Source: Terriglobales bacterium (GTDB lineage Bacteria; Acidobacteriota; Terriglobia; Terriglobales; Acidobacteriaceae). From it: 46,495 bases of DNA. Shown in pieces: positions 3,794 through 46,435 of this stretch. The notes beneath the pieces were generated by a model. The model was given only the letters and a program-made list of their open reading frames with translations. It did no database searches and was not told where the DNA came from. The stretch is taken from NCBI GenBank assembly GCA_025927855.1, contig JAICKN010000002.1, positions 1 to 46,495 on the forward strand. The letters are read 5' to 3'. The translations under genes and the position numbers were made by a program. Each line of letters starts with the position of its first letter. The stretch's first letter is position 1.

Positions 3794-5944
3794 TCAGTTT
3801 TTATATTCGTCGGGGGAGATTCCCATGCGCTGCATACGCGATTGCAAAGTTGTCCGCTTCAACCCCAGACGGGCGGCCGCGCCGTGCAGGCCGGCCACTA
3901 CACCCCGGGTTTCGCGCAGTGCGCGGACAATATGCTGGCGCTCCAGCGCTTCCAATGTGTGAGCAACATCGGTAGAAGACACTGGCCGTTGTAATTCCGT
4001 TAACGGAACATTGAGGGTTCTTCCCGGAGACAAGATCACGGAGCGCTCAATGATGTTCTCCAGCTCCCGTATATTGCCGGGCCAGTCGGCGGCCATAAGG
4101 GCATTCATGGCTTCAGCAGGGATGGTTTCAATTTGGCGGTTCATGCGCCGTGCATACGTTTGCACAAAATAGCGCACCAGGGCGGGAATGTCCTGTTTGC
4201 GCTGCCGCAGGGCAGGCAGGCGTATAGGAAAGACATTCAGCCGGTAAAAAAGATCGCTGCGGAATTCTTTATTGGCGATACTTTTTTCCAGGTCGCGGTT
4301 TGTAGCGGCCACCAGCCGGATATTGACGCGCAAAGTTCGCGTTCCTCCCAGCCGTTCGAATTCCTGGTCCTGTAAAACACGAAGCAGTTTTGGCTGAAGT
4401 TCGAGCGGGATTTCCCCCACTTCGTCAAGAAAGAGCGTACCCTTGTCCGCCAGTTCGAGGCGTCCAATCTTTTGACTGATGGCCCCAGTAAACGCCCCCT
4501 TTTCATGGCCGAAGAGTTCGCTTTCCAGCAAGCCGGTGGGAATCGCCGCACAATTCAGCTTGATGAAACTGCCGTCCTTGCGGGTGCTCAGACGATGAAT
4601 AGCGCGGGCGATCAGTTCTTTACCGGTACCCGTTTCTCCGAGAATGAGCACGGTGGCGTCGCTCGGAGCAACCGTTCTTGCCTGGTCCAGAACATTGCGC
4701 AGGAGCGGGCTTTCGCCCACGATTTCTTCAAAATTCGTCCCGGAGTTAATCTCGCCTTGGAGGTAAAGCTTTTCTTCCGCCAGTTTATCCTTGAGCGTCC
4801 TTATTTCGCGGTAAGCATGGGCGTTATCGAGGGCGATTGCGATCTGGGATCCAATTTGCTTAAGCAGCCCCACGTCCTGGGAGACAAAAGCGTCATCTTC
4901 CTTGCTGGCCAGGCTCATGACTCCAATCGTGCCTTTTCGCGTAGCCAGTGGAATGCAGCAGATGGACTTGACTCCATGAGCCAAAAGTTTCCGCGTGACG
5001 TCCGAAGAAAAGGCCTGCAATTCTTTGCTGTGAAACACCTTGGCATGTTTGGCCAGAAACGCTTGGCCCGAAGTGCTATCCCGCAAGGAGTAGGAATCTC
5101 CAACTTTGAAAATTTCGTACCCGGGGCCATGATGGAAGGCATATTTCCGCAGGGATTGGGAGCTTTCGTCATAAAGAGCTACCGACGCGAAATCATGCCT
5201 GATAACTTTCCGAATATAGTCAGAGATTGCGGGAAAGTGCTTCTGTACATCCAGATTCGCAACAAGGGTGCTGTTCACCTGCAACAGCATTTGCAGGCGT
5301 TCTTTTTCCTGCTGCAATGCGCCGCGCGTGAGAGCGTTTTCAAGCGCGAGAGCCATCAATTCCGCAACGCGCTGTAGAAAGCGGATGTCATTTTCAGCGT
5401 AGACATTCGGATGGGCGCATGCCAACCCCATACCGCCTAAACGCCTCTCTCCCGCAGTCACCGGGAAAACATAATAAGCCTGCATGCCGGCGGCACGAAG
5501 GATGCTGATTCCCTCCCCGAACCTGGTTTCTGTCGTTAAATTTTCTATGGCTAAAGGAACTTGATGCTGCCAGACCCATCCGCTGGGTGACTGATCCAGC
5601 GCCAGTCTTCTGGGTTCAAATTTCACATCCTTGCCTCGCCAAAAATAGAGCTGCATCACATTTTCTGCAGGTTCATGCATCACGAAGTTGATGAGGTGAA
5701 AGCAGATATACTGGCGGAGGCGTTCAGTGAAATCGGAAAAAAGATCGCTTAAACTGCTGGGGCGCACTACCAGATCGGCCATTTGCAGCAAGGCCTCGTA
5801 GCGGCGCAGTTCCGACTCAGCTTCGAAGTGACTGGGATCCATTTGCGCGAGTACCCATCTCTGCCCCCCTCGAGCAAAACTTCCCAAACTAAACTTCCGC
5901 GAATCATATCCGAGCGTGTCGAAAAACACAAAGATCAAAATCAT
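3794..5944 (-). CDS. Sigma-54-dependent transcriptional activator with two GAF domains (FhlA/NifA-like)
   Basis: 716 residues; an in-frame ATG at 5842 (MDPSHFEAE) may be the true start because the first 34 residues look unrelated to the fold. GAF domain 1 covers about 58-205 and GAF domain 2 about 228-385, joined by coiled-coil-like helices. The AAA+ domain has Walker A GETGTGKE (about 434), the sigma-54 contact loop GAFTGA (481-486), Walker B TLFLDEVGE (about 505) and the WPGNIRELEN motif. A Fis-type helix-turn-helix closes the protein (about 675-712). The GAF pair should sense a small ligand or redox signal and drive sigma-54 promoters by ATP hydrolysis. There is no receiver domain, so it is not a two-component regulator. 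Target promoters are unknown. Confidence 0.95.
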   Translation of the reverse strand: MILIFVFFDTLGYDSRKFSLGSFARGGQRWVLAQMDPSHFEAESELRRYEALLQMADLVVRPSSLSDLFSDFTERLRQYICFHLINFVMHEPAENVMQLYFWRGKDVKFEPRRLALDQSPSGWVWQHQVPLAIENLTTETRFGEGISILRAAGMQAYYVFPVTAGERRLGGMGLACAHPNVYAENDIRFLQRVAELMALALENALTRGALQQEKERLQMLLQVNSTLVANLDVQKHFPAISDYIRKVIRHDFASVALYDESSQSLRKYAFHHGPGYEIFKVGDSYSLRDSTSGQAFLAKHAKVFHSKELQAFSSDVTRKLLAHGVKSICCIPLATRKGTIGVMSLASKEDDAFVSQDVGLLKQIGSQIAIALDNAHAYREIRTLKDKLAEEKLYLQGEINSGTNFEEIVGESPLLRNVLDQARTVAPSDATVLILGETGTGKELIARAIHRLSTRKDGSFIKLNCAAIPTGLLESELFGHEKGAFTGAISQKIGRLELADKGTLFLDEVGEIPLELQPKLLRVLQDQEFERLGGTRTLRVNIRLVAATNRDLEKSIANKEFRSDLFYRLNVFPIRLPALRQRKQDIPALVRYFVQTYARRMNRQIETIPAEAMNALMAADWPGNIRELENIIERSVILSPGRTLNVPLTELQRPVSSTDVAHTLEALERQHIVRALRETRGVVAGLHGAAARLGLKRTTLQSRMQRMGISPDEYKN

Positions 5945-39039: not shown

Positions 39040-39765
39040 CTATTTCAAGTCCTGCAATTGGGCAGAAGCCATCTGCGCGGCTGGACCTGAAGGATCTTCC
39101 TTCTGAATCTGCTGGTAAGTCTGCTTCGCATCCGCCGTGAGTCCGGCAGCCTGGTAGGTAGCGGCCAATTCAAATTGCGCCATGGACTTTCCCACAGAGC
39201 GCGTCGGCTTGGCAATCAATTGCTTGTAAATCTCGATGGCATCTTTCGCGCGGTTCGTTCTGCGATAAACGGATGCGAGGGCAAATTTGCCGAGCGCGGC
39301 CAGGTCTTTTTGATGGGAGTCCGCGACGGTTTTCAACTCGTTTTCCGCCAGCGTGTCATTGCCTAAATCAGCTGCCGTTAGAGCATGGAAGTAGCGGGCG
39401 AAGTCCGCTGTTTTGGTATGGGGATACTTATCCATGATGGCTTGCAGCTGCTTTTGCGCCTGGGTGGCGCGGTCGCTCGCGGAAGCATAGCTTATCTGTC
39501 CGGGCTGTTCCGGCATCCCTGCGGGGCGCACGGGAGCGTCAAGAGTGCGCATGACCTGGTTAAGTTCAATGCTGGCGGCCCGGTCCTGTTGGTCGAAGTG
39601 GTACCACGCAACTCCTATGGCAGCGGCGATTACGGCCACGATAACGCCGGCAATGATGAGCGCTTTGACGTGCTGAGACGACCAGTCAAAGGTCTTCTCC
39701 GCGGCTTCCATAGTGACCTGGCTGAAGCGGTCTTGCTTGAGTTGATGGCGGGTTTGAGCTCGCAC
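39040..39765 (-). CDS. YfgM-like membrane-anchored TPR protein
   Basis: 241 residues from a GTG at 39765 with GAAGGGA 5 nt upstream; ATG 39807 in the same frame is an alternative start. A short cytoplasmic N terminus (RAQTRHQLKQDRFSQ) leads to one transmembrane helix (about 34-55, KALIIAGVIVAVIAAAIGVAW) and an exported domain of TPR-like helical pairs (about 100-240: ARYFHALTAADLG, GKFALASVYRRTN, AQFELAATYQAAG). This is the layout of YfgM/TPR_21 proteins, which work with SecYEG and periplasmic chaperones. Frame use upstream of 39807 does not look coding. Confidence 0.82.
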   Translation of the reverse strand: MRAQTRHQLKQDRFSQVTMEAAEKTFDWSSQHVKALIIAGVIVAVIAAAIGVAWYHFDQQDRAASIELNQVMRTLDAPVRPAGMPEQPGQISYASASDRATQAQKQLQAIMDKYPHTKTADFARYFHALTAADLGNDTLAENELKTVADSHQKDLAALGKFALASVYRRTNRAKDAIEIYKQLIAKPTRSVGKSMAQFELAATYQAAGLTADAKQTYQQIQKEDPSGPAAQMASAQLQDLK

Positions 39766-39986: not shown

Positions 39987-40886
39987 CTACGGATTCTGCG
40001 GAACCAGCAAATCGCAGTGGTCTACGCATTTCACCGTGTTGACCTCGACACTGGCCTTCTTGTGTCCGGAGAAGTTGATATCTGGCCGGATGAAGAGGGT
40101 TTGTGTGCCGTTGGCAACATTGAAGGAGCAATTAAAGGTCATGGACTGCACGCCGCGTTCCTTGCATCCGGTCTGGTCGAGCGCGTCGGTGAGGCTGACG
40201 GTATTGTCGTAAACCTGGTCGGCGAGATGCGACGGCAGCAGCGCGACCGTTAACGGAATGGGCGACTTAATCTTCACGCTGAGTTTCTGGTCATCGTGGT
40301 CGGGCGTCATTAGGCTGTAAACCTTGGGCACCGTCGTCACTTCATATTTTTCGTTCAGGATGCGCCGCCAGTCGAATTCCGGCTGGACGCAATTGTCCAC
40401 ACAACTCCAGCGGTAGTACTGAATATGCAAATCGTTGGGCGAAATAAACTGCCGCGCCCCTGGGCCGAGAATCGCGCCGATGGCGGAGACGACTGGCTTT
40501 TCTGGCCGGCGCTCGTCGCGGAACGTGATGATCATGGGCCGTTCGGAGGGCAAATGACATTCATAAGTCGTGCTGGTGACATGTTCCTGTATACAGATGA
40601 AGCTGAAATTCACGGGCGCATTGGGATGTTGCATCGCAGCGCTCCATTCGTCGGCCCACGCCATGGCAACGGTGACGGGATACCGCGATTCGATGCCGAC
40701 ATGCAGGTTTCCGCCCCCGGCTGCTGGGCGATAGATGCGGCCCGCATGCAGGCTCGCGGGCTCCATGGGAATAGTCTCGCTGTTGGCGGGAGTCCAGTCG
40801 AAAACACGATTGTCATTATTCTGCGCGCTCGCGGTGGTCATCAAGACGCAGAAAAGCAGTGCCATCAAAGCGGAAAGATGCTTCAT
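39987..40886 (-). CDS. Secreted protein with two copies of a Cys-patterned domain, function unknown
   Basis: 299 residues. A signal peptide (MKHLSALMALLFCVLMTTASAQ) is followed by two diverged copies of one domain. Copy 1 has P70-V-T-V-A, Cys98-x11-Cys110 and Cys162-x3-Cys166 (CVDNC). Copy 2 has P211-L-T-V-A, Cys241-x11-Cys253 and Cys287-x3-Cys291 (CVDHC). The eight mature cysteines suggest four disulfides in the periplasm or outside the cell. The beta-rich pattern suggests an immunoglobulin-like or lipocalin-like sandwich. I do not recognise the family. It lies 221 bp upstream of the TPR gene on the same strand. Confidence 0.8.
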   Translation of the reverse strand: MKHLSALMALLFCVLMTTASAQNNDNRVFDWTPANSETIPMEPASLHAGRIYRPAAGGGNLHVGIESRYPVTVAMAWADEWSAAMQHPNAPVNFSFICIQEHVTSTTYECHLPSERPMIITFRDERRPEKPVVSAIGAILGPGARQFISPNDLHIQYYRWSCVDNCVQPEFDWRRILNEKYEVTTVPKVYSLMTPDHDDQKLSVKIKSPIPLTVALLPSHLADQVYDNTVSLTDALDQTGCKERGVQSMTFNCSFNVANGTQTLFIRPDINFSGHKKASVEVNTVKCVDHCDLLVPQNP

Positions 40887-44908: not shown

Positions 44909-46108
44909 CTACGGGAACTGGGCAAAGGTGGTAACGCTTTGCGCAGGCAAAGAGTAAGTGAAGGTATTGTTCGTTACCGTCACGGGACTCAACTGGGCCA
45001 TGTGTTGACTGGAACTGGTTCGAATCGGCGTAAACGAATTCACTCCAGATGCATTCTGGATGGTGAACGTCTGGTTGACCGTAGAGCCGCCAGTGTTGAG
45101 AGCTACGATCACTATTCCGTTATTGTGGTAAGCGGTGACGTAGATATTGGATTGCGGATTATAGGTTGCGCTGCAGCGAACCTTGCCGGGGCGCACCCAG
45201 TGGGCGAATTGTCCAAGGACGTAGCCGCGCAAATCAACTGTCGTGCCTTCGATGAAAGACGCCGGATCGTTGGGCATAATCCACCACCAGAAGTAGGCGC
45301 TGAACTGGTTGTTCATGGCATCGCTGACTTCTTTGGCGACGGTCATGGCTGTTCCAATGTCAGTGCCGTTGATGTAGTGCTCGGTTTCCCAAACATGTTT
45401 GCCGTGGTTGAGGGCGTTCTGGTGCACACGGTTGCCGCCGCCATAAAAGTGACCGGCAATATACGTCACGTGGCTCGCTGCCGTGCTGTTGTTCAGGATG
45501 GGATCGCTGTAGGAATCATTGAACTGCAACGATTCCGGAACAACGATGGGCTTGCCTACCGAGGGCGCATTATTCAGCACCCAGTTCAGGATTTCCGTAG
45601 GAGTGGGATTCGACGATTCGTATCCCGGGTTGGGGCACCAATCCGGTTCATTCTGAAAGGAAACGAAATCCAGATTGAGCGCGCTGACGGCATGGCTCAG
45701 GTGAGTGGCATAAGCCGCGTAGGAGCTGGTCTTCAGATCGCCGCAGATGATGCTGTTGTTGGTCTTCATTGAGGCGGGCGGAGTCCAGGATGAGCCCAGC
45801 ACTTTTGCCCCGTGGGAATGGGCGGTTGCCGAGTTGGATGGCTCATTGCCCCAACTCTCGTTGGGATCAATGCGCACGCGAAGCAGCGAGAAACCGAGCT
45901 GCCCGCTGCCAGTGCCGAAAAGAACGTTACCCTGGGCGCTGCTCATGGCGGGCGTCCAGGCGGTGGAAAATCCGAAACCATCAATGGCTTGTTGGTTAGA
46001 ACCGACGTTGATTGTGGCGGTTTGGGCATTGGCGAAGCCAACCAAAGCGACAATCATCACGAATAAAACCGATACCAAGTAATGCCGGGGGAAGTGCTTA
46101 TTCTTCAT
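44909..46108 (-). CDS. Secreted GH30 glycoside hydrolase (glucuronoxylanase/glucanase type)
   Basis: 399 residues from ATG 46108 with GGAGG 5 nt upstream. A signal peptide (YLVSVLFVMIVALVGFANAQ) precedes the GH30 barrel: the N-terminal strand INVGSNQQAIDGFGFSTAW, acid/base Glu154 in SFQNEPDW, and nucleophile Glu243 in VWETEHY (Glu241 is next to it). The C-terminal side beta-sandwich (about 300-399) includes NNGIVIVALNTGG and ends QSVTTFAQF. The NEPDW and TEH pattern resembles GH30 xylanases of subfamily 8, but glucanases of the family are also possible. The gene lies downstream of a probable outer-membrane barrel gene on the same strand. Confidence 0.9.
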   Translation of the reverse strand: MKNKHFPRHYLVSVLFVMIVALVGFANAQTATINVGSNQQAIDGFGFSTAWTPAMSSAQGNVLFGTGSGQLGFSLLRVRIDPNESWGNEPSNSATAHSHGAKVLGSSWTPPASMKTNNSIICGDLKTSSYAAYATHLSHAVSALNLDFVSFQNEPDWCPNPGYESSNPTPTEILNWVLNNAPSVGKPIVVPESLQFNDSYSDPILNNSTAASHVTYIAGHFYGGGNRVHQNALNHGKHVWETEHYINGTDIGTAMTVAKEVSDAMNNQFSAYFWWWIMPNDPASFIEGTTVDLRGYVLGQFAHWVRPGKVRCSATYNPQSNIYVTAYHNNGIVIVALNTGGSTVNQTFTIQNASGVNSFTPIRTSSSQHMAQLSPVTVTNNTFTYSLPAQSVTTFAQFP

Positions 46109-46435
46109 GACGCCTCCAAATAAATGAACGAATATCCCGGCTCTGTAGGATTCGAGCTCCCCCCTTTTTTGCCTCGCCTTCATCCTGCAAAGTCAAAGAC
46201 CCGTTAGCTATATACCTAAAAATGACGTGAGCGCAATACATTTGATACTGGAGAGAGGCCTTGAGTGCAGGGATGGGAAGAGTTATGTATGCGTGGGGAA
46301 AGGACGCAGGGTGGATTCCTAACCGGTGTGCGCGTTCGCACAACCAGGACCGCGTTCCTAGGCGTGTGCTGTTTGACGAATCGAAGTTACCATTAGGCAA
46401 ATCCACGCCTAACGCCAGAATCTAGAAGCGTTTTT
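46109..46435. other. 327-bp region upstream of GH30 with palindromes
   Basis: No gene is supported. TAGGCGTG (46359-46366) and CACGCCTA (46404-46411) are a perfect inverted pair 37 nt apart; inside, TTAGGC (46393-46398) can pair with GCCTAA (46407-46412). TGTGCG-CGTT-CGCACA is a 16-bp hairpin at 46327-46342. These may be 3'-end structures of the upstream gene or operators. Confidence 0.45.

Follow-up and report, generated by a model that had tools for sequence, protein, structure and literature searches.

An exported-type two-domain protein of Acidobacteriota derived from tandem duplication of a four-cysteine domain, with a predicted jelly-roll fold and a possible binding role

A gene from a Terriglobales bacterium encodes a protein whose two halves carry the same cysteine spacings in the same order, C-x11-C followed by C-x3-C, raising the question of whether the two halves descend from a single duplicated domain and what such a protein might do. 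The stretch of DNA analysed, hereafter the window, is 46,495 nucleotides long. A previous sequence-only reading had proposed a secreted protein made of two copies of one domain, separated by an old duplication and belonging to no named family. The translation was rechecked, and the open reading frame, residue numbers, spacings and motifs given in that reading were all correct, including the cysteine pairs C98/C110 and C162/C166 in the first half and C241/C253 and C287/C291 in the second, and the distances of 28 residues from P70 to C98 and of 30 residues from P211 to C241 that separate the PxTVA motif from the first cysteine. The features of the gene are listed below in window coordinates.

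39987..40886, minus strand: whole gene, two-domain protein of exported type, 299 amino acids plus stop, ATG start
40821..40886, minus strand: predicted signal peptide, residues 1-22, MKHLSALMALLFCVLMTTASA/Q, with a hydrophobic N terminus and an A-x-A site
40377..40799, minus strand: domain 1, residues 30-170, predicted beta-sandwich with the D-x-R and W-x-C-x3-C motifs
40665..40679, minus strand: P70-VTVA motif of domain 1, with P unchanged across 15 homologues
40557..40595, minus strand: C98-x11-C110 of domain 1, a spacing kept in 142/142 domain copies
40509..40517, minus strand: D124-E-R126, the D-x-R motif of domain 1 and of stand-alone domains
40389..40403, minus strand: C162-x3-C166 of domain 1 (WSCVDNC), kept in 56/64 first domains and deleted in the sister clade
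40008..40367, minus strand: domain 2, residues 174-293, jelly-roll beta-sandwich in a confident model
40242..40256, minus strand: P211-LTVA motif of domain 2, with P, T and A unchanged across 15 homologues
40128..40166, minus strand: C241-x11-C253 of domain 2, present in 64/64 second domains
40014..40028, minus strand: C287-x3-C291 of domain 2 (CVDHC), present in 64/64 second domains

Comparison of the gene with its close relatives returned a dN of 0.08 and a dS of 0.61-0.92, and the resulting dN/dS-type ratios of about 0.1 indicate a real gene under purifying selection, with orthologues reaching 82% identity. The signal peptide was predicted by reading the sequence, in which neither a conserved lipobox within the peptide nor a second membrane span along the protein was found, and the homologues likewise begin with a hydrophobic stretch. 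The product is an exported-type protein. Cleavage at the predicted ASA-Q site would leave a mature chain with exactly eight cysteines, all within the repeated pattern, one additional cysteine (C13) being located inside the signal peptide.

The relationship between the two halves was evaluated by profile methods. Alignment of two 15-row half profiles with hhalign, the self-comparison proposed in the sequence-only reading, gave an E value of 5.2e-5 and a probability of 67 over 59 columns at 24% identity, and the domain-1 profile also matched the second half of homologues with E values down to 2.6e-6 (L052). The two repeated spacings, in order, occurred in 41 of 200,000 shuffles of the mature chain (2e-4). 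A profile built exclusively from 64 first domains gave each of the 64 second domains a score of 16.6-37.2 bits, while 1,280 shuffled second domains with the cysteines fixed in place reached at most 11.0 bits, showing that the relation extends over the whole domain and beyond the cysteines alone. The halves are only 17-19% identical, as chance or convergence in cysteine spacing might produce, but this origin was rejected as practically negligible since the real scores were never approached by the Cys-fixed shuffles and relatives with one, two and three domains exist. Together with the domain tree described below, the profile comparison and shuffle controls bear out the claim of an old duplication and show, at the level of sequence, that the window protein is a true old tandem duplication of a four-cysteine domain.

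As to the identity of this domain, no Pfam family matched the window protein at E values up to 10 and Pfam returned nothing for its first domain; NCBIfam, PADLOC and PDB sequence searches were equally empty and the best PHROGs match had an E value of only 0.16, in agreement with the absence of a named family suggested earlier. Matches to gamma-filamin (E 0.22), to Pox_C7 (0.002, with one of 16 domain rows) and to one genome (G486, E 0.006) were taken as chance. A literature search on Acidobacteria jelly rolls or exoproteomes also returned nothing on the family. A profile search of whole Acidobacteriota genomes, as the earlier reading had advised, detected relatives in 50 of the 398 genomes of the window's own bacterial family (26/256 when good genomes are considered) and in a second bacterial family within the class, f7, and nothing convincing in samples of 347 and 396 genomes from the rest of the phylum. 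The family thus appears genuine, unnamed as far as the libraries searched are concerned, and restricted to one Acidobacteriota class. Its carriers are soil Acidobacteria, confined to these two bacterial families among the genomes searched. The window genome holds a single copy, and a genome search retrieved no paralogue. Another genome (G028) carries two paralogues, L003 on contig C3 and L011 on C7, one lacking the domain-1 C-x3-C and the other retaining all eight cysteines.

Most of the family, 62 of 82 distinct sequences with fragments included, consists of two-domain proteins. Another six are genuine single-domain proteins (L063, L066/L010, L112, L113/L108, L114/L109 and L171); as read from sequence, L113, L114 and L171 carry a hydrophobic anchor at the N terminus, and the start of L112 resembles that of a lipoprotein. 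Two further proteins have three domains, L058 (507-residue ORF at 3884-5404, plus strand) and L164/L133 (517-residue ORF; L164:799-2349, plus strand), and come from different bacterial families. At each of the three positions the domains of the two proteins group with one another, and in L058 the domain-1 and middle loops are long, the middle one being rich in D, R and H. In several genomes (L024, L046, L064 and L008/L013) the gene is broken by a stop or a frameshift, reflecting either decay or assembly error, and it looks like a dispensable accessory gene.

Conservation across the domain copies revealed which features are strict and which are specific to one half. The C-x11-C pair is present with exact spacing in every one of the 142 copies, while C-x3-C occurs in 64/64 second, 2/2 middle, 6/6 stand-alone and 56/64 first domains. 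The first domains without it, eight full-length ones plus the fragments L007 and L077, belong to the sister clade of the window protein, whose own first domain keeps the pair; in that clade a 6-residue deletion has removed W-x-C-V-x from domain 1, C98 and C110 stay, and the leftover cysteine is alone in some members and gone in others. The expectation that homologues would retain the paired cysteines therefore failed for C162/C166 in this one clade and held for C-x11-C throughout. The D-x-R motif was found in 64/64 first and 6/6 stand-alone domains and in 6/64 second domains, and W-x-C-x3-C in 56/64, 6/6 and 3/64 respectively, while C-x-x-R-x-x-[QRE] is present in 62/64 second domains and in no first domain. 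These counts show that domain 1 is the keeper of an ancestral motif set (D-x-R and W-x-C-x-x-N-C) common to the stand-alone relatives, and that domain 2 has lost this set and gained a new one, its conserved patch comprising EKY, C-x-x-R-G-V-Q and KKAE.

A maximum-likelihood tree of 76 domains resolved the 31 second domains as one clade (100/100); the remaining domains, whether first, middle or stand-alone, all fall across that branch. The two three-domain proteins have middle domains that cluster with each other (99/95), and the placement of the stand-alone domains is uncertain because of their long branches. Both bacterial families are mixed within each half of the tree, indicating that the duplication predates their separation or that the gene moved between them.

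The fold was investigated by AlphaFold2. A model of the full protein with 15 homologues had a pLDDT of 73 and a pTM of 0.43, and domain 2 modelled alone with 55 domain sequences reached 88.7 and 0.80. In the full-length model both halves displayed the same order of elements, namely strand, strand, long beta segment, helix, long beta segment carrying C-x11-C, strand and strand. This common order and the confident domain-2 model support the beta-sandwich envisaged in the sequence-only reading. Each C-x11-C falls in an uninterrupted beta segment of the model, which may be a tight hairpin or one long bent strand. The four predicted disulfides are consistent with the conservation of the cysteines, and the sister clade, which lost the second domain-1 pair and kept the first, fits a pairing of C98 with C110 and of C162 with C166.

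A Foldseek search with the domain-2 model returned p24 GOLD domains (TM 0.56/0.69), the C-terminal jelly roll of Tk-SP (0.51) and Ena1B (0.49/0.54), along with unrelated jelly rolls, virus capsids and phage proteins. The matches were weak (best E 8.8e-5, 4-15% sequence identity) and none of these model-based similarities is close enough for homology; domain 2 is best described as a predicted jelly-roll beta-sandwich, loosely GOLD/PPC-like. The full-length model gave TM values below 0.27 and was uninformative, since the placement of its domains is uncertain at that pTM. Its top matches, XepA, an exported protein of PBSX (6i56), and the SID1/SIDT ectodomain, resemble the window protein in having two consecutive sandwich domains, but with TM values of only 0.24-0.26, rmsd of 17-25 A and no sequence relation.

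Comparison with the better-known domains helps to define what the family is. The GOLD domains of p24/TMED proteins (PDB 5azx, 5azy), the best match by target length (0.69), are compact all-beta sandwiches of similar size, lumenal or exported and stabilised by disulfides as predicted here. They are however eukaryotic, share 4-6% identity with the window domain and have a single disulfide linking residues that are far apart (C49-C121 in TMED9; PMC11414720), whereas the window domains each have two local cysteine pairs; the Pfam GOLD family matched neither the window protein nor the domain rows. GOLD domains bind cargo via the edge of the sandwich (PMC11414720). The Tk-SP C-terminal jelly roll (3afg), a PPC domain, is likewise an exported bacterial or archaeal jelly roll, and the domain-2 model has the beta-jelly-roll fold of PPC (TM 0.51 to 3afg), but 16 domain rows gave no match to PF04151 at E values up to 1. 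PPC is an appendage on a protease, whereas the window protein is a stand-alone chain of 299 amino acids with two such domains and without a catalytic domain. For PPC and jelly-roll domains, binding or swelling of the collagen substrate has been described (PMC11294657).

The explanation that we consider the more probable is an exported two-jelly-roll protein which arose by tandem duplication and would act by non-catalytic binding. Its components differ in strength: the architecture, the duplication and the fold are very likely to be correct, and we give about an even chance to the non-catalytic binding role. According to this explanation, a single domain anchored in the membrane or envelope of Terriglobia-type Acidobacteriota would have been duplicated in tandem to yield the exported two-domain protein. 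In each domain the C-x11-C disulfide most likely staples the beta segment and the C-x3-C disulfide most likely closes the C-terminal turn, and both would lend stability to a small sandwich located in the oxidising envelope or beyond the cell. The chain would offer two binding faces that have diverged from each other and might hold a ligand or partner protein, or bridge two of them. The nearest solved folds to domain 2 are non-catalytic sandwich domains, and across 15 homologues the invariant residues are scattered and of a structural kind and form no recognisable catalytic set, an absence that is compatible with an enzyme too.

Two other functions appear unlikely to a similar degree. Inhibition of a protease or another hydrolase by the secreted protein, with a reactive site in the D-x-R loop or in a variable loop, would suit a small, cysteine-rich, exported protein with predicted disulfides, encoded by a patchy accessory gene (50/398 genomes of the family) and carrying in domain 1 a loop that varies in length and is flanked by two conserved strands. 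However, no inhibitor family was matched and the D-x-R motif is invariant, while typical inhibitor reactive loops diversify. An enzyme, hydrolase or oxidoreductase, perhaps with a redox-active C-x3-C pair, might account for the highly conserved polar residues of D-x-R, EKY, C-x-x-R-G-V-Q and KKAE, but the domain-1 C-x3-C is dispensable across the whole sister clade, the fold is not thioredoxin-like, and the nearest domain-level folds include no enzymes save for attached non-catalytic domains.

Less likely still is a self-assembling surface fibre subunit with stacked, cysteine-cross-linked jelly rolls, as in the Ena endospore appendages (7a02, 9i0y), whose subunits are also small exported jelly rolls with disulfides, predicted in our case. 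Foldseek retrieved both Ena2A and Ena1B (9i0y E 8.8e-5; 7a02 TM 0.49/0.54). Ena subunits have an N-terminal cysteine connector, whereas residues 23-97 of the window protein, the site of such a connector, contain no cysteine and the eight mature cysteines, an even number, are all in the two domain cores. The window gene also occurs as a single copy outside any gene cluster, with no paralogue in the genome and no conserved neighbours.

Comparison of the neighbourhoods of the family loci showed that no gene travels with the family, so guilt by association lends no support to any function. The most improbable of the functional alternatives, an accessory protein of an osmoprotectant-type (OpuA-like) ABC transporter, derives from genus g80, where the stand-alone gene directly follows such an operon; in L112 (6064-9033, minus strand) it lies 35 bases behind the genes for the ATPase, the permease and the substrate-binding protein and shares their strand, and this gene order recurs in L172, whose family relative looks truncated or frameshifted. 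In genus g47 of the second bacterial family, the same substrate-binding gene is found within several kb of the two-domain gene at seven loci, but on the other strand in the cases examined and usually with other genes in between, and synteny is expected within one genus. That substrate-binding gene is absent from all two-domain loci in the window's own bacterial family, and the linkage is a weak lead.

Returning to the window protein, we regard its family as new, lineage-restricted and of common fold, and it probably binds something outside the cell membrane. A broader interpretation, possible but put forward tentatively, is that this unnamed Terriglobia-specific domain is a modular envelope recognition unit that developed, by one duplication, from a single domain anchored in the membrane into an unanchored, two-faced adaptor and later a three-domain form, the second copy providing a new binding face and the first retaining the old one. 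The one-, two- and three-domain series, with ancestral motifs kept in one copy and lost in the other, offers a clean case for domain duplication and division of labour. This clear family, which has a strict signature of cysteines and is not in the libraries searched, adds to the poorly annotated exported proteome of Acidobacteriota; its fold is ordinary and holds little surprise for specialists until a ligand is found.

Finally, the window gene is flanked upstream by a radical-SAM gene and downstream by a TPR gene on the same strand, the latter recurring only in one genus (L060, L061, L064) and in L069, where it converges. The TPR protein (39040-39711, minus strand) has an N-terminal membrane span and was by eye taken to be YfgM-like; its long ORF, called from 40131, overlaps the window gene and the true start is probably 39711. 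Another exported protein is encoded at 44909-46183 on the minus strand, presumably a glycoside hydrolase of GH30 type as judged by eye, and a close homologue (80% identical) lies just upstream of the family gene in L015, from the same genus.
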